64,000 bases of DNA, from NCBI RefSeq assembly GCF_015209745.1, contig NZ_CP063657.1:1426001-1490000 (forward strand), written 5' to 3'. Under the pieces are notes generated by a model that was not told the DNA's origin, searched no databases, and worked only from the letters and a program-made list of their open reading frames with translations. Positions 36,115 to 43,585 of this stretch are shown piece after piece. Every line of letters starts with the position of its first letter. Position 1 is the first letter of the stretch. The DNA is from Lysobacter avium. Its GTDB lineage: Bacteria > Pseudomonadota > Gammaproteobacteria > Xanthomonadales > Xanthomonadaceae. The position numbers were made by a program, and so were the translations under genes.

Positions 36115-36513
36115 ATGTCCAGCAAGTTCAATGGCAGCCGCAACGACAATGACGACACCCCCGATACGGGCATCGAGCCCCACGCCGACCTGCGCGATGC
36201 GGCCGGCAAGCTGCTGGGTGGAATCGTCCGCCGCGATGGCGAATGGGTGCTCGGCATGGACGGCAAGATGGTCGGCAGCTCCGACAGCGCCGCCACCATG
36301 CTTGCCCTCATCCGCCGTGCCGCCTCGATGCACGAGCGCACCGGCGCCACCGCAACGCTCAAGTTCTCCGATGCGCTGCGCGATGCCGCCAACGCGGAGG
36401 CGCGACAGCTCGGACTGGAGTTCCAGCAATTCGAAGCCCAGCTTGACGAGAAAATGAAGACCACCCCATCCTCATCCGCGAGCAGCGCGGCCGACCGCAG
36501 CGGGCTGCACTGA
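36115..36513 (+). CDS. Hypothetical small charged protein
   Basis: A 132-residue soluble protein I do not recognise. It has an Asn/Asp-rich N-terminus, a central G-G-I-V-R-R-D-G-E-W-V-L-G-M-D-G-K-M-V-G-S segment that looks like a short beta-hairpin, a helical region (about residues 58-115), and a Ser-rich tail. No signal peptide or membrane segment. It lies 73 bases after the kinase gene, and its stop is 10 bases from the stop of the convergent kinase gene. Base composition matches its neighbours, and codon structure supports a real gene. Confidence 0.7.
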   Translation: MSSKFNGSRNDNDDTPDTGIEPHADLRDAAGKLLGGIVRRDGEWVLGMDGKMVGSSDSAATMLALIRRAASMHERTGATATLKFSDALRDAANAEARQLGLEFQQFEAQLDEKMKTTPSSSASSAADRSGLH

Positions 36514-36523
36514 GCGCCCCGAA

Positions 36524-37858
36524 TCACATCCCGGCAACCGGAAACTGCACTGAGGCCTGGAATCCGTCTGCCCGGTCAGTGGCGGGCGAGGCCAATTTGA
36601 GCTCGGCGCGTGCCGCCGTCGCAACGGTCGAGACGATCGCCAATCCCAGCCCATAGCCGGGCGCTCGACCGCTGCCGCGGACGAAACGCTCGGTCAGCTG
36701 TGCCAGCTCGGCGGGGTCCAGGACGTCGCCGGCATTGACGACGCTAAGCCGCGCGTCTGTGGTCAGTTCGACATTGATGGGACGTCCCGGCGCGCCGTGT
36801 TTCAACGCGTTCTCGATCAAATTTCGCGCCAGGATCGCGAATGCGTCTGCATCGATCGGTGAGAGGACCGGCCCATCCGGCGGCAGCGTCAGCTGGATGG
36901 GAACCGTGGCCACGCGTTGCAGGTCTCCCACAACGTGGTTCAGCAGCATCGCCAGGTCCTGGGGAACCTCCGCAAGCACGCTCCCGCCCTCCGCCTTTGC
37001 CAGTTGCATCAACTTCTCTGCGAGGCGCGCCAGCTCCCTCAGCGATGCCTCGATCTGCGCTGCGCGCTCCTTGACCGGTCCGTCGGCCGCCTCATGGCGG
37101 AGACGCTGCACCTGGGCAAGCGCGGCCGCCAGCGGGGTGCGCAGCTCGTGCGCACTGTTGGCGGTGAACCTGCGCTCGGTCTCAAGCGCACGCCGCAGGC
37201 GATCAATCAGGTTGTTGACCGCATCCGCGCTCGGACGGATTTCCAGCGGCAAGGGCGCGGTCTGGATCGGCGAGAGGTCACCTACGCCTCGGGCTTCGAC
37301 CGCGCGTCGATAGGAGCGCACGCTGCGCAGGCTGAAACGCACGAACAGCCAGACGCCCAGCAGGCTGGCGGGCACCAGCAACAGCAGTGGCAGCAGAAGG
37401 GCAAAGGTGGCATCCCGCGCGGCCTTGCGGCGATATGACAGGGGTTCGGCGACCTGCAGGAACAGCGTGTCGCGCAGTGCACTGGCGCCGTACACGCGGT
37501 GAGTCGGCGTCGTGCTGAAGCCCTGCATCGTCGGTGGGCCAAAGACCGTCAGGTCGGCGTCGCGCGATTGCAGCAGGATGGTGCCCTCGCGGTCGCGCAC
37601 CAGATACGCGACCTGGCCGGGAAGCGCATTCAGTGGCGCCACCCTCTGCTGGGTAAGTGGCTCTTCGCGATTGAGGATGTCCATTACCGCGAGCGGCAGG
37701 ATCCGCTGCGCAGCGCCCTGCATCGCATCGTCGAACGCATCGTCGAGCCGGTTCTGCACGATCAGCCCGGACAGGGCGGTCGCGACCACCCACAACACGA
37801 CGATCCCCAGAGTGAGGCCGTAAACGAGCTGCTTCTGCAGACTGCCCGCCGCCTTCAT
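36524..37858 (-). CDS. Sensor histidine kinase (QseC/PmrB-like)
   Basis: A 444-residue kinase. TM1 is at about residues 12-34, a periplasmic region of about 120 residues follows, TM2 is at about 160-180, then HAMP and HisKA with the H-box S-A-H-E-L-R-T-P-L. The ATPase domain has N-box L-A-R-N-L-I-E-N-A-L-K-H and G-box G-Y-G-L-G-L-A-I-V; the D-box reads V-V-N-A-G-D, a variant. The ATG overlaps the regulator stop (ATGA). The signal is unknown; context suggests control of the divergent flavin-redox genes. Confidence 0.92.
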   Translation of the reverse strand: MKAAGSLQKQLVYGLTLGIVVLWVVATALSGLIVQNRLDDAFDDAMQGAAQRILPLAVMDILNREEPLTQQRVAPLNALPGQVAYLVRDREGTILLQSRDADLTVFGPPTMQGFSTTPTHRVYGASALRDTLFLQVAEPLSYRRKAARDATFALLLPLLLLVPASLLGVWLFVRFSLRSVRSYRRAVEARGVGDLSPIQTAPLPLEIRPSADAVNNLIDRLRRALETERRFTANSAHELRTPLAAALAQVQRLRHEAADGPVKERAAQIEASLRELARLAEKLMQLAKAEGGSVLAEVPQDLAMLLNHVVGDLQRVATVPIQLTLPPDGPVLSPIDADAFAILARNLIENALKHGAPGRPINVELTTDARLSVVNAGDVLDPAELAQLTERFVRGSGRAPGYGLGLAIVSTVATAARAELKLASPATDRADGFQASVQFPVAGM

Positions 37859-38523
37859 GGCTGCTCGAGCCGGCCCAACCGGTAGCCCATGCCGCGGACG
37901 GTATCGACCACGTTGAAGCCGAGCTTTTTACGCAGGTGGCTGACATGGACCTCCACCGCATTGCTCTCTATCTCGGCCCCGAACTCGTACAGGCGTTCCT
38001 CCAACTGGGACTTCGACAACAACGCGCCCGGGCGCTGGAGGAAGGCTTCCAGCAGCGCCCATTCCCGCGCCGTCAAGGCGATGGCTTCCCCTTCGCGCTG
38101 GATGCTTCGATCCGTCAAGTCGATGGACAGCTCTCCCAGTTGCAACCGCGGGTTCGGATTGCCGCTGTAACGACGCGCCACGGCAGCCACGCGGGCGGAC
38201 AGTTCCGACAGGTCGAACGGCTTGACCAGGTAGTCATCTGCCCCGGCGTTGAGGCCGGCAATGCGGTCGGACAGCTGGTCCATGGCCGTCAGGATGATGA
38301 CCGGCGTGCGGTCGGCGGCCGAGCGCAGGCGGCGCAGGAAATCGATGCCGCGACCGTCGGGCAGCATCAGGTCGAGCAGGAGAAGGTCGTACGCAGTCGA
38401 GCCGATCGCCAGTTGCGCGTGAGCCAGGGTCTGCACCCAATCCACCGCGTGTCCGTCATCGCCGATCTGCTCGCGCACGGCCTGGCCCAGGTCGGCGTTG
38501 TCCTCGATCAACAGTACCCGCAT
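37855..38523 (-). CDS. OmpR-family response regulator (QseB/PmrA-like)
   Basis: A 222-residue regulator with a receiver domain (L-I-E-D-N near residues 5-9, phospho-Asp in L-L-L-L-D-L-M-L-P-D, L-T-A-M-D, Y-L-V-K-P-F-D) and a winged-helix domain (L-T-A-R-E-W-A-L-L-E-A-F and V-R-G-M-G-Y-R-L). The start at 38523 was chosen because the receiver begins M-R-V-L-L-I-E-D; the frame is open further upstream but carries no family sequence. It is divergent from the PepSY/DUF2271 genes, 82 bases between starts. Confidence 0.93.
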   Translation of the reverse strand: MRVLLIEDNADLGQAVREQIGDDGHAVDWVQTLAHAQLAIGSTAYDLLLLDLMLPDGRGIDFLRRLRSAADRTPVIILTAMDQLSDRIAGLNAGADDYLVKPFDLSELSARVAAVARRYSGNPNPRLQLGELSIDLTDRSIQREGEAIALTAREWALLEAFLQRPGALLSKSQLEERLYEFGAEIESNAVEVHVSHLRKKLGFNVVDTVRGMGYRLGRLEQP

Positions 38524-38537
38524 TGCAAAAAACCCCC

Positions 38538-38547
38538 GCCTTAAGGC
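38538..38547. promoter_or_regulatory. CTTAAG-centred palindrome in a divergent promoter region
   Basis: GCCTTAAGGC is a perfect ten-base palindrome, 15 bases upstream of the regulator start and 59 bases upstream of the PepSY gene. PmrA/QseB-type regulators recognise half-sites of the CTTAA kind, so it is a candidate autoregulatory site. A second half-site was not identified. Confidence 0.3.
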
Positions 38548-38605
38548 TGGCATCAGGATGCTCCGCCAGAGTCCACGTTGCACCCACTCAAAGGAGATCG
38601 CGCTC

Positions 38606-38969: not shown

Positions 38970-39440
38970 ATGAACAAGCTCGTCCTATCCCTCTGCCTGG
39001 CCGGTGCCATGGCCCTGCCCGCACTGGCTGATGCCCGGCCGGTCACCCTGACCACCCAGATGAAAGCCCACGGCGGTGACGGCGCCTACCTGGCCATCTA
39101 TGTCACCGATGCCGCGGGCAAGTACCACAAGACACTCTGGGTCTCGGGCAAGAAGTCGAAGTACTACAAGAACCTGCGCGACTGGGCCCGCGGCAGCGGC
39201 ATGCGGGCGAGCGAGTTTGACGGCGTGAGCGGCGCGAGCGTCGGCAGCGGGCGCACCCTCAAGGTCACCGCCGAACTTGAGGACGCGTTGATCGATGCCG
39301 GCTATGAAATACGGATCGACACCGCGGTGGAGGACGGTCGCGACAATCCCGCCGACGTGCGGGCGCCCCTGACCAAGGCCGGCAGCGGCAAAGCGACTGC
39401 GGGGCGCGGTTACGTGCAGTCATTCACTTACGACATGTAA
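38970..39440 (+). CDS. DUF2271 periplasmic protein with ApbE flavinylation motif
   Basis: A 156-residue exported protein with a signal peptide to about residue 20-22 (A-L-A-D-A) and a DUF2271 domain. Residues 84-90 read D-G-V-S-G-A-S. This fits the D-x-x-S/T-G-A-S/T consensus at which ApbE covalently attaches FMN, making Ser90 the candidate acceptor. ApbE itself and a membrane flavoreductase are encoded directly downstream. A role as periplasmic FMN-carrying electron carrier is inferred; the motif and neighbours are seen. Confidence 0.85.
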   Translation: MNKLVLSLCLAGAMALPALADARPVTLTTQMKAHGGDGAYLAIYVTDAAGKYHKTLWVSGKKSKYYKNLRDWARGSGMRASEFDGVSGASVGSGRTLKVTAELEDALIDAGYEIRIDTAVEDGRDNPADVRAPLTKAGSGKATAGRGYVQSFTYDM

Positions 39441-39467
39441 TCGATCGGCCTGAAGGAGGTCCGCATC

Positions 39468-41696
39468 ATGTTGCGTCGGATTCACTCACTGCCCGCTCTT
39501 GTCCTTGGGCTGCTGATCGCCGTATTGGCGATCAGCGGCGCGATCCTGTCGGTCAATCCAGCCATTGACCGGCTGGGAACGACTGTGCCGGAGCGTGGGC
39601 AGGTCAGCGTCGCCCTGCTTGCGGAGCGGATAGCCGAGAACTTCGTCGGCGTGGAGCAGATCCAGCGCAGCCCGTCCGGCTCGATCATCGTCTACTACAG
39701 CCAGGATGACCGGGCCGAGGCGATGCGTGTCGACCCGCTCAGCGGAAAGGCGATCGGCCCGTATGCGACCTCGCCCACCACGCGCTGGATCAAGAACCTG
39801 CATCGCTCGCTTCTTGCAGACACGCCGGGCAGGGCCGCGGCCGGAATCTCGGCGCTGACGATGCTGGTCCTGTGCGTGTCAGGCATGGCACTGCTGCTCA
39901 AGCGCGTCGGGGGATGGCGGCAGCTGTTGCGCCCACTGCGAGGCAGTTTCAGCCAGCGTTGGCACTCGGAGCTCGGGAGAATCGCCCTGTTGGGGCTGCT
40001 GATGTCCGCGCTGACCGGCATCCTCATGTCGGCGACCACCTTCGGCCTGATACCCGAGGGGGCGGACACCGAGCCTGCGTTCCCGACTGCGGTGGAGACG
40101 CCAGCCGCGCCGGTACCGGTGGGCACCCTGCCCGCTCTGCTGGAGATCGATCTCCAGGACCTGCGCGAACTCGTCTATCCGATGCCGGACACTCCCTCGG
40201 ACTTCTACTCGCTCGCCACCGCGCAGGGCGACGGCTACATTGACCAGGCCACGGGCGTCCTGCTGGTCTTCCAGCCACATGACCGGGTCCAGAACGCCCA
40301 TGAACTGATCTACCGCCTGCACACCGGCGAGGGACTGTGGTGGCTGGGTCTCCTGCTGGGCGTCTGTGCACTCAGCGTTCCGGTGATGAGCGCCACCGGC
40401 GTGGTGATGTGGTGGCAGCGTCGCCGCCTGATGCCGCGCATCGCCAACAACAGCGGCGCGCAGGCGGCAGACACCGTCATCCTTGTGGGCAGCGAAGGCA
40501 ACAGCACCTGGGGCTTTGCGAACGCGTTGCACGACGCGTTGCACAAGGCCGGCAAGCGGGTGCACACCGCCCCGATGAACCTGCTGGCGAAGGAATATCG
40601 CCAGGCACGCCACCTGTTCGTACTCACCGCCACCTACGGTGACGGAGACGCGCCCACATCGGCCAGGCAGTTCCTTGCGCGCCTGGGAAGGTTCAGCGGT
40701 GACAACAACCCGGCGTTCGCGGTCCTGGGATTCGGCGATCGCCAGTTCCCGCGGTTCTGCCAGTTCGCCAAGGACGCCCGCGACGCGCTGCTTGGCCGCG
40801 GCTGGACCGAATTTCTCGAGCTGGACACCGTGGACAGGCAGTCCTCGCAGGAGTTCGCGCGCTGGGGAGAGGCGGTTGAACCTGCACTGTCCCTCAAGCT
40901 GGGGCTGACACACGTACCGTCCCACCCCCAAACCCGCCCACTCGAGCTGATCAGCCGGATGGACTACGGTGCCCAGGTCAATGCGCCGACCAGCATCCTG
41001 CGCTTCGGGCCGGTCGCCTCACCGCGCGCTCGCGGGAGGTTGCGTCGGATGCTCGGTATCAGTGAGCTGCCCCACTTCGACGCAGGTGATCTGGTGGGAA
41101 TCGTGGCGCCGGGAAGCCCGGTCCCGCGGTTCTATTCCCTTGCCAGCGGATCCAGCGACGGCTTCCTTGAAATCTGTGTGCGCAAGCACCCCGGCGGCCT
41201 GTGTTCGGGGATGCTTCACGACCTGCAACCCGGCGCCCGGATCGATGCGTTTATCCAACCCAACCCCGACTTCCGGCCGGCCTCGGGCAAGTCGCCGGTG
41301 GTTCTCATCGGCGCCGGAACAGGAATCGGGCCGCTGGCCGGATTCATCCGCAACAACACCGGTAAACACCCGATGTATCTGTACTGGGGCGGCCGCGACC
41401 CGGCGTCGGACTTCCTCTACGAGCCCGAGCTGGACGGCTACCTGGCCGATCACCGGCTGACCGGGTTGAACGCGATTTTCTCCCGCACCGCCAATGGCGG
41501 TTACGTGCAGGACCGGCTGCTGGACCACTCCTCGCAGATGCGGCGACTGATTGAAGACGGCGCTCAGATCCTGGTCTGTGGCGGCCGCGCGATGGCCGAC
41601 AGCATCCGGCAGACCATCGACGCCATCGTGGCTCCGATCGGCCTGGATGTTGCCACCCTCAAACTGCAGGGGCGCTACCGTGAAGACGTCTTCTGA
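39468..41696 (+). CDS. Membrane PepSY / flavodoxin / FAD-NADPH reductase fusion
   Basis: A 742-residue fusion. The N-terminal half is a PepSY-associated membrane protein with four hydrophobic segments (about residues 8-30, 126-148, 172-195, 295-320) and PepSY-like loops between. A flavodoxin-like domain follows (about 335-480; G-S-E-G-N-S-T-W-G-F, T-A-T-Y-G-D-G-D-A-P). Then comes a sulfite-reductase/CPR-type module with FAD motif R-F-Y-S-L-A-S and NADPH motifs G-A-G-T-G-I-G-P-L-A-G-F and Y-W-G-G-R-D-P. It should take NADPH electrons in the cytoplasm and pass them across the membrane. AAGGAGG precedes the start; the next gene begins within its 3-prime end. Confidence 0.9.
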   Translation: MLRRIHSLPALVLGLLIAVLAISGAILSVNPAIDRLGTTVPERGQVSVALLAERIAENFVGVEQIQRSPSGSIIVYYSQDDRAEAMRVDPLSGKAIGPYATSPTTRWIKNLHRSLLADTPGRAAAGISALTMLVLCVSGMALLLKRVGGWRQLLRPLRGSFSQRWHSELGRIALLGLLMSALTGILMSATTFGLIPEGADTEPAFPTAVETPAAPVPVGTLPALLEIDLQDLRELVYPMPDTPSDFYSLATAQGDGYIDQATGVLLVFQPHDRVQNAHELIYRLHTGEGLWWLGLLLGVCALSVPVMSATGVVMWWQRRRLMPRIANNSGAQAADTVILVGSEGNSTWGFANALHDALHKAGKRVHTAPMNLLAKEYRQARHLFVLTATYGDGDAPTSARQFLARLGRFSGDNNPAFAVLGFGDRQFPRFCQFAKDARDALLGRGWTEFLELDTVDRQSSQEFARWGEAVEPALSLKLGLTHVPSHPQTRPLELISRMDYGAQVNAPTSILRFGPVASPRARGRLRRMLGISELPHFDAGDLVGIVAPGSPVPRFYSLASGSSDGFLEICVRKHPGGLCSGMLHDLQPGARIDAFIQPNPDFRPASGKSPVVLIGAGTGIGPLAGFIRNNTGKHPMYLYWGGRDPASDFLYEPELDGYLADHRLTGLNAIFSRTANGGYVQDRLLDHSSQMRRLIEDGAQILVCGGRAMADSIRQTIDAIVAPIGLDVATLKLQGRYREDVF

Positions 41697-42642
41697 ATCC
41701 GCTGATTCATCCGTCGCGGTGATGCAGCGGTACAGCCTGCACGGCGAGACGATGGGCACCCGTTACAGCGCGCTGTTCTTTGCCGCGCCGGGCGTCGATG
41801 AGCCGGACATTGGCCAGCGGCTCTTCGCCGCGGTCGATGCCGTCGATCGACAGATGTCGAGCTGGAAGGCCGATTCCGATCTGAGCCGGCTGAACGCCGC
41901 ACCGATCAACCAATGGACCACGGTTCCGGCGGAGCTGTTCGCGGTGCTGGAAACCGCCCTGCAGGTCGGTCGACAGTCGCGGGGCGCGTTCGATATCGGC
42001 GTCGGCGATCTGGTCCAGTCCTGGGGTTTCGGCCCCGCCCGGGGCGCGATCGACCTCACGGCGATCGCCGCTCGTAAAGCGGGTGTCCGCCGCGCCGCAT
42101 CCGAGATCCTCGAACTGGACGCCCCGCAGAGCCGCGTCCGCAAGCGGGCGGCGATCACTCTGGATCTCGCGGGGATCGCCAAGGGCTTTGGGGTCGACCA
42201 GCTGGCCTGCTGTCTCGACGGTTTCGGCATTACCCGCTACCTCGTCGGGATAGACGGTGAGATGCGCGCCCGCGGCAGCAAGCCGGACGGCCGTCCCTGG
42301 GCCGTCGCGATCGAGAAGCCTGTCCGCGGTGTGCGCGAGGTCACCGGGGTGATGGAGTTGGCTGACGCGGCAATTGCCACGTCCGGCGACTACCGGCACT
42401 GGGTTGAGCATGACGGCCGCAGCTACCCGCACACCATGGACGCCACCGGCCAGCAGCCGGCCAGCAACCGACTCGCCGCGGTCAGCGTCGTGGACGCCAC
42501 GTGCATGCTTGCCGACGCATGGGCGACCGCCTTGCTCGCCTTGGGCGAGACGGAAGGGGTCAGGCTGGCGCGTGAACGTGGAATGGAGGCACTGTTCACC
42601 CTGCACGATGGCGACGGCTTTCAGGAGATCCACGTCGGCTAA
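41680..42642 (+). CDS. apbE: FAD:protein FMN transferase
   Basis: A 320-residue ApbE-family enzyme that attaches FMN from FAD to Ser/Thr of target proteins. Features: G-E-T-M-G-T-R-Y-S near the N-terminus, [36 protein letters not shown] and the C-terminal [15 protein letters not shown] chose the GTG at 41680 (CAGGGG upstream), overlapping the preceding gene; ATG 41722 is the alternative. No export signal is visible, so modification may occur before export of the target or an anchor is missing. Its likely target is the DUF2271 protein two genes upstream. Confidence 0.92.
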
Positions 42643-42670: not shown

Positions 42671-43585
42671 ATGATTGCACCTGATACCGCCGATACGGTT
42701 CTTGATTGTCTTGTCATCGGCGGCGGTCCGGGTGGTTTGACGGCGGCGACCTACCTGGCGCGCTTCCGTCGCAAGCTCGTGCTGGTCGACGCGGGTCAGA
42801 GCCGCGCGCGCTGGATCCCGGCAAGCCACAACTGCCCGGGTTTTCCGTTTGGCGTGGCAGGCAATGAGCTGCTGGGCCGCTTCCGCGAGCACGCCACCCA
42901 GTACGACGTGCCCGTGGTCGAGGACCGCGTGGACGCGCTGGAACGCTCCGGGGATATTTTCATCGCCCGCTCAGCGACACGCCGATGGCGCGCCCGCAGC
43001 ATCATCCTGGCCACCGGCGTGGTCGACCTGCTGCCCGAGATCGAAGGCGCCGACGATGCCATCGCAACCGGGGCGATCCGATTGTGCGCGGTCTGCGACG
43101 GGTATGAGGCCCGGGATGACGCGATCGCGGTGCTGGGCCGCGGCGAGGAGGCGATCGGCCACGCCGAGTTCCTGCGGACCTTCTCGCGTGACGTCAGCGC
43201 CATCGCGACCGACGGCCTTGACGAGGATCCGACCATGCAGGATCGGGCCACCGCCAGCGGCGTGGTGCTGCTTCCGGCGCCGGACCGGTGGCATCTGGTC
43301 GATGGCGGCTGTGAGGCTCAGCTTCCGGATGGATCCAGGCGGCGCTTCGATACCCTGTATCCGGTGCTTGGCTCCGACGTCCAGTCTTCCCTGTTGTTGC
43401 CGCTTGGCGCCGCGACCGACGACGCAGGCGCATTGAACGTCGATGACCACATGCAAACCAGCGTCGACGGCGTGTACGCGATAGGCGACGTGGTCAGCGC
43501 GCTCAACCAGATCAGCGTGGCCGTCGGACAGGCCGCGATCGCCGCGACCGCGGTCCATGGCAGCCTTCCGCGCAACCCGCGCTGA
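42671..43585 (+). CDS. Thioredoxin-reductase-like FAD-dependent oxidoreductase
   Basis: A 304-residue flavoprotein of the thioredoxin reductase fold: FAD motif [14 protein letters not shown], redox pair C-A-V-C-D-G-Y (the counterpart of C-A-T-C-D-G) near residue 140, NAD(P) region A-V-L-G-R-G-E-E-A, and the C-terminal Y-A-I-G-D-V-V. GGAG lies eight bases before the ATG. It differs enough from TrxB that its disulfide substrate is uncertain. It follows apbE by 28 bases and is probably in the same operon. Confidence 0.87.

Follow-up and report, generated by a model that had tools for sequence, protein, structure and literature searches.

A gene cassette of Lysobacter avium encodes, in this order, a DUF2271 protein with a Sec-type signal peptide, a membrane-bound fusion of PepSY_TM, flavodoxin and FAD/NADPH reductase parts, and an ApbE flavin transferase without a recognisable leader. 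It lies in a 64,000-nucleotide stretch of contig NZ_CP063657.1 (positions 1,426,001 to 1,490,000), referred to here as the window. It seems probable that the cassette specifies a PepSY-like flavin relay in which a dedicated ApbE attaches FMN to DUF2271 in the cytosol, ahead of its export by Sec, the periplasmic acceptor being probably ferric iron. More generally, the evidence tilts towards a leaderless ApbE clade which attaches FMN to an exported carrier in the cytosol, so that a flavinylated precursor crosses the translocon; exported ApbEs would serve FMN_bind proteins, and leaderless ones DUF2271. A relay from NADPH through the PepSY part to FMN on periplasmic DUF2271 had been proposed in the preliminary description of this DNA. 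It fits the published PepSY-like model (PMC8238504) and, being already in print, is a rediscovery that cannot be put forward as new. The literature found suggests that the conserved leaderless ApbE is new. No mention of such an enzyme was found in the available portions of PMC8238504, the genome count of which discarded genes without a signal, and flavinylation before export is unreported in the titles and abstract openings among the matches listed.

ApbE enzymes without a leader and their predicted substrate

A single scan of named genomes confirmed 416 related loci, of which the best 80 were retained; they come from beta-, gamma- and alphaproteobacteria. Export was judged by the same rule for all ApbEs, which required either a lipobox or a hydrophobic stretch following one of the in-frame starts. 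The ApbE of the window has no export signal by this rule when read from its GTG (position 41680), nor does an alternative start in the same frame supply one. The preliminary description had noted this absence and called it odd; the absence stands, whilst the feature is a conserved property and no oddity of one genome, since none of the 62 cassette ApbEs was flagged as exported (61 loci and the window; the apbE of L030 is in two pieces, leaving 61 evaluable). By comparison, 46 of 58 other ApbEs were flagged, 57 of them from the same 60 genomes and one from the L063 genome, as were 18 of the 21 found in genomes where the cassette lacks apbE. Some of the unflagged non-cassette enzymes have twin-arginine starts. 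Of the ApbEs in the L063, L020 and L030 genomes, the rule covered the first one of L063 and the split cassette enzyme of L030.

All cassette ApbEs fall into a single clade (SH-aLRT 100), L170 included; Alcaligenaceae strain CGII-64 has two leaderless ApbEs of this clade (L021 and L170). The TSG, His (by a loose pattern) and [AG]D sites are present in 62/62 cassette ApbEs, and a strict DLxxIAKG loop pattern matches 43/62. The window enzyme thus combines the family profile and catalytic residues of an ApbE flavin transferase, with PDB relatives 6nxi and 5mgy, with the lack of the N-terminal export or lipoprotein signal of a typical periplasmic ApbE. A cytosolic ApbE without a signal peptide is known from Klebsiella pneumoniae, but its target is a soluble cytoplasmic fumarate reductase, whereas the target here bears a signal (PMC12052999).

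It is highly improbable that these enzymes are exported without a recognisable signal, or that their true start was missed, and that they act in the periplasm as usual. Their sequence leaves room for non-classical export, and periplasmic lipoproteins make up most of the ApbEs characterised so far (PMC12052999). However, no hydrophobic leader follows any in-frame start in the 61 evaluable ApbEs. Furthermore, the apbE GTG start lies within the fusion gene, 16 nucleotides before its last base, in 53 of the 61, and a Shine-Dalgarno-like stretch precedes the start in 59. The distribution of FMN_bind proteins, given below, also argues against hidden export.

The predicted substrate adjoins the fusion in 79 of the 80 loci, the exception being L063, whose contig begins within the fusion gene. 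The gene order, the signal peptide and the motif DGVSGAS (D84 to S90) of the preliminary description all agree with the open reading frames, their Pfam matches and the translation (Table 1). DUF2271 holds the sole D-x-x-[ST]-G-A-[ST] site among the proteins of the window cassette and its surroundings (the fusion, PepSY_2, ApbE, thioredoxin-reductase-like, histidine kinase and response regulator proteins were checked). Conservation of the motif among apbE-linked homologues had been proposed as a check, and it is borne out. D-x-x-[ST]-G-A-S is found in 78 of 79 related DUF2271s, as would be expected of an ApbE substrate, the 79th (L092) reading NGLTGAS, and the acceptor position is Ser in all 79; given this recurrence, the motif is not due to chance. 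A crude signal test was passed by 75 of the 79, the remaining four appearing signal-like by eye. An AlphaFold2 model of the window protein (mean pLDDT 82.9) consists mainly of beta strands, with helices at residues 63–83 and the motif in the loop which follows them, although the block 81–90 is less certain (mean pLDDT 66). Comparison of DUF2271 with the PDB gave no relevant match.

The closest experimental precedent is the DUF2271 of Amantichitinum ursilacus, which has the same domain and motif, with the acceptor at the last motif position. It is flavinylated by its own ApbE, a Thr-to-Ala change abolishes the modification, and signal-less DUF2271 and ApbE react on coexpression in E. coli (PMC8238504). 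The acceptor there is Thr and not Ser, and the signal peptide of its apbE was cut off for expression (PMC8238504). ApbE and DUF2271 matches also adjoin in single open reading frames of 678 and 621 residues (L269, G353:C1:148570-149925; L270, G424:C1:4814732-4816063), which are probable ApbE–DUF2271 fusions. An ApbE fusion of such a kind has been reported for another protein (PMC8238504).

Cytosolic or periplasmic flavinylation

In 10 of 60 cassette genomes the leaderless enzyme is the only ApbE found, so that the signal-bearing DUF2271 could be modified there only by the leaderless enzyme. Pseudomonas fluorescens FW300-N2E3, on the other hand, encodes ApbEs of both kinds. A second type of DUF2271 cluster bears on the same question. 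It is composed of PepSY_TM-like, DUF2271, DUF4198 and ApbE proteins, and a DUF2271 match of this type is present in 73 of 149 genomes of the family (Lysobacteraceae). The best-scoring 30 of its loci, that of L. avium included and no random draw, were all examined; an ApbE lies in reach in 29, of which 20 have a leaderless and 9 a leader-bearing enzyme. Leaderless enzymes occur in two separate DUF2271 cluster types. ApbEs were counted in 21 genomes of these loci, 20 with a leaderless ApbE and one (L241) without an ApbE in reach; six of them, which are 99–100% complete and combine a leaderless ApbE with the canonical motif DGVSGAT, have exactly one ApbE each, the leaderless one.

L. avium has a locus of this second type itself (L006, positions 893000-907000 of its genome), an iron-type cluster of PepSY_TM_like_2, DUF2271 (DGVSGAT), DUF4198, a signal-bearing ApbE and a flavodoxin-reductase, beside a TonB-dependent receptor called by sequence. 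Across the second type, the canonical motif accompanies 9/9 enzymes with a leader and 6/20 leaderless ones, DGV[ST]GPT standing beside 14/20 of the latter (Fisher p = 7e-4 for leader against motif, kinship ignored). The initial impression of motif loss was abandoned once alignment gave GPT in place of GAT. This proline variant is found in the leaderless Lysobacteraceae loci L232, L233, L236-L240, L242-L248 and L148.

FMN_bind, the family of NqrC, RnfG and NosR, provides a further contrast. Of the 50 cassette genomes that encode two or more ApbEs, 47 have it, whereas it was found in none of the 16 in which a leaderless enzyme is the sole ApbE (10 with the cassette and 6 with the second type). 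This 50-genome comparison is fuller than the initial scan, which used four hand-picked comparator genomes. In one of the three FMN_bind-less genomes among the 50, G127, the second ApbE is leaderless too (L148). Taken together, the sole-ApbE genomes, the second cluster type and the FMN_bind pattern are most simply read as a leaderless ApbE which acts in the cytosol, on DUF2271 alone and before export. Passage of a modified precursor has parallels, as Sec exports phosphopantetheinylated and biotinylated preproteins (PMC3418276) and its channel is able to open to about 22 angstrom (PMC5963308).

The cassette might instead encode an ordinary PepSY-like relay whose DUF2271 is flavinylated in the periplasm by other, exported ApbEs, leaving the cassette ApbE redundant or with some other cytosolic role. 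This appears unlikely, though several observations favour it. All 17 cassettes that lack a neighbouring apbE retain the motif, and in 17/17 of their genomes an exported-looking ApbE was found elsewhere in a phmmer scan; conservation of the motif alone does not, therefore, show that the cassette ApbE is the modifier. Since the apbE-less cassettes keep the motif and must use another ApbE, a periplasmic route seems workable, and it is apparently possible for their DUF2271 subfamily to be served from the periplasm in this way. Three loci were left out of the 17: L030, with its split apbE, L020, whose contig ends past the fusion, and L063, in which no apbE was found within about 10 kb after the fusion and whose genome has a lipobox ApbE. 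The absence of apbE fits a single change in the fusion tree (support 74). A serine acceptor was considered as a hallmark of leaderless ApbEs and rejected, the apbE-less cassettes likewise having Ser.

L. avium itself has two further exported-looking ApbEs, of which one bears a signal peptide and the other a twin-arginine start. The periplasmic route is thus open there and the organism's own genome does not decide the matter. The twin-arginine enzyme, the third ApbE of the genome, is encoded at positions 1250000-1260000 (L007), with an FMN_bind match at 1246310, in surroundings that we take to be a nitrous-oxide-reduction region. Against periplasmic modification stand the 10/60 cassette genomes and the 6/6 canonical-motif Lysobacteraceae in which a leaderless ApbE has no companion, the retention of the leaderless gene in the operon with an overlapping start and intact catalytic sites, and the lack of a second canonical motif in the window cassette.

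Besides the exported ApbEs of L. avium and the apbE-less subfamily, a number of points weigh against cytosolic flavinylation by a dedicated enzyme. Among the ten sole-ApbE genomes, Pseudomonas costantinii LMG 22119 and Alcaligenaceae CAII-53 are named strains; the other eight are metagenome bins, so that missing sequence is a worry for this count. L059, a near-identical sister of P. costantinii, has a second ApbE with a lipobox and an FMN_bind protein, and their lack in P. costantinii may thus reflect a recent loss or a gap. The split between FMN_bind and leaderless enzymes is imperfect, as G092 and G096 have FMN_bind and a second ApbE not flagged as exported. The proline variant DGV[ST]GPT beside 14/20 second-type leaderless ApbEs may not be a working site. 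The counts by species are not independent of one another, and the export calls come from our own hydropathy and lipobox rule, not from SignalP. Finally, ApbEs favour Thr over Ser as the acceptor, and in a test of thiamine-related growth, where ApbE had to be periplasmic to function, a truncated cytosolic form did not rescue an apbE knock-out (PMC12052999).

The proposed relay, its surroundings and its probable acceptor

The proposed sequence of events would begin with the divergent two-component pair turning on the operon via a direct repeat, one operon then yielding both DUF2271 and the leaderless ApbE. ApbE would attach FMN, drawn from cytosolic FAD, to Ser90 of unexported DUF2271, and the FMN-bearing protein would cross the membrane by Sec. 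The fusion would pass electrons from NADPH to FAD, to flavodoxin FMN and then across the membrane by way of two haems. On the periplasmic face FMN-DUF2271 would take them up and deliver them to an acceptor; the most likely one is ferric iron, which would be freed as Fe2+ for uptake.

PepSY-like clusters are defined by PF03929 or PF16357 no more than five genes from ApbE/DUF2271, with at least one signal peptide (PMC8238504), and this arrangement is found here. Meheust et al. 2021 listed 3220 such clusters, 2833 of them with DUF2271, together with 1077 PepSY genes with an NAD-binding domain, and proposed iron reduction (PMC8238504). The shared features are PepSY_TM (PF03929), an NAD-binding domain (PF00175) in part of the clusters, a signal-bearing DUF2271 with [S/T]GA[S/T], apbE in the cluster and, in some, VIT1 (PMC8238504). 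The cassette differs in its additional flavodoxin domain, PepSY_2 protein and divergent two-component pair, and in its ApbE without a leader.

In the fusion protein, Pfam identifies PepSY_TM (151 bits) at the N-terminal end, Flavodoxin_1 and NAD_binding_1, with FAD_binding_6 slightly under the cut-off; it thereby belongs with the subset of PepSY-like members that carry an NAD(P)H-linked cytosolic domain. Its C terminus resembles CysJ and cytochrome P450 reductase, and its closest database match, at 98% identity, is named from Lysobacter sp. H21R4. Four histidines (His6, His112, His166 and His285) are invariant among 29 aligned proteins and, by analogy with FoxB, may hold two haems. FoxB, from Pseudomonas aeruginosa (7abw), is likewise a PepSY_TM haem protein (PMC11334425, PMC13038864), but its chain of 382 residues is about half the length of the fusion and the similarity in sequence is not significant: a weak match over the last helix places His285 opposite a histidine of the FoxB chain (E 0.29). 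An identification of the fusion as a FoxB relative by sequence was therefore rejected.

Iron is the best guess for the acceptor, judged from the neighbours of the cassette and from related systems. A VIT1-type gene lies directly 3' of apbE in 21/80 loci, and a Ferric_reduct-type protein is encoded 5' of the cassette in 8/80 (L017, L060, L072, L073, L076, L077, L079 and L083), seven of the eight being apbE-less and one such protein being a 112-residue piece. These labels come from a Pfam run on two members each; in the two Ferric_reduct-type proteins scanned (L017 and L076) it found PF01794 and an FAD domain. The 21 VIT1-type genes are, however, all from Pseudomonas, which counts against this evidence. 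PepSY-DUF2271-ApbE clusters have been proposed as iron reductases (PMC8238504), and links to iron were drawn earlier for DUF2271 genes of Alteromonas (PMC7190382) and later for a PepSY/DUF2271 operon of Caulobacter (PMC11870441).

Reduction of copper, or of an oxidised periplasmic protein, in place of iron is less likely, although copper is a serious alternative; the question concerns the acceptor only and is compatible with cytosolic flavinylation. A link to copper is known for CrpH, another PepSY_TM protein (PMC13038864), and a thioredoxin-reductase-like gene lies 3' of the cassette in the window and in two Lysobacter loci. The VIT1-type and Ferric_reduct-type neighbours and the iron regulation of other PepSY/DUF2271 loci (PMC8238504, PMC11870441, PMC7190382) speak for iron. 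Conservation with the cassette is lacking for the reductase-like gene; found in 2/80 loci, both Lysobacter, it was rejected as a component of the system. Near the cassettes of L026, L045 and L072 are proteins which resemble arsenic-resistance parts.

PepSY_2 is present in 67/80 loci, and a regulator and kinase adjoin the cassette in 56/80, cut contigs being counted in both cases. A direct repeat of the pattern T[CA]AG[GC]N6T[CA]AG, with an 11-base period, was first spotted by eye in part of these same loci. Where the regulator is divergent, the repeat precedes the operon in 56 of 58 cassettes, counting that of the window; where there is no such regulator, it does so in 8 of 21. Of random stretches matched in size, 31 of 1580 contain it. 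The repeat suggests that the operon may be under two-component control. The PepSY_2 protein of the window has an N terminus of secreted appearance. Neither this protein nor the two-component pair and the repeat was noted in the preliminary description. Response_reg and Trans_reg_C were matched in the response regulator reading frame (Pfam scan on 37855-38505), and a 132-residue open reading frame adjoining the kinase gene (36115-36513, + strand) has no Pfam match.

Table 1. Features of the L. avium cassette and its flanks (positions in the window)
Feature	Position	Strand	Basis
Sensor histidine kinase of the divergent two-component pair	36524..37858	-	HisKA and HATPase_c (Pfam)
OmpR-type response regulator, 222 residues from ATG at 38523	37855..38523	-	start read off the DNA
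Direct repeat TAAGG-N6-TCAG, probable response-regulator site before the operon	38542..38556	+	pattern search
Small PepSY_2 protein, 109 residues	38606..38935	+	PF13670, 94.9 bits
DUF2271 protein, predicted FMN carrier	38970..39440	+	PF10029, 126 bits
Sec-type signal peptide of DUF2271, residues 1-22 (MNKLVLSLCLAGAMALPALADA, then RP; cleavage between ...ADA and RP)	38970..39035	+	sequence
Predicted flavinylation motif D84-G-V-S-G-A-S90	39219..39239	+	D-x-x-[ST]-G-A-S
Fusion of PepSY_TM membrane (probably haem) reductase, flavodoxin and FAD/NADPH reductase, 742 residues	39468..41696	+	Pfam
Leaderless ApbE flavin transferase, GTG start within the 3' end of the fusion gene	41680..42642	+	PF02424, 248 bits
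Thioredoxin-reductase-like protein, probably outside the conserved cassette	42671..43585	+	Pyr_redox_2; TRX_reduct under cut-off

Consequences for flavinylated relays

The export of cofactor-bearing proteins is usually a task of the Tat pathway, and flavinylation of DUF2271 in the cytosol, if true, would provide a natural example of a Sec substrate that carries its cofactor. A review of 2025 calls the delivery of FAD to ApbE obscure (PMC12052999). If the enzyme indeed stays in the cytosol, this would answer the question of FAD supply for such systems, and leaderless enzymes would spare the cell a periplasmic supply of FAD. Modification before export can be tested directly in the organisms whose single ApbE is leaderless. 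In Pseudomonas and Lysobacter, the relay itself would be a candidate system for reducing iron in the periplasm.

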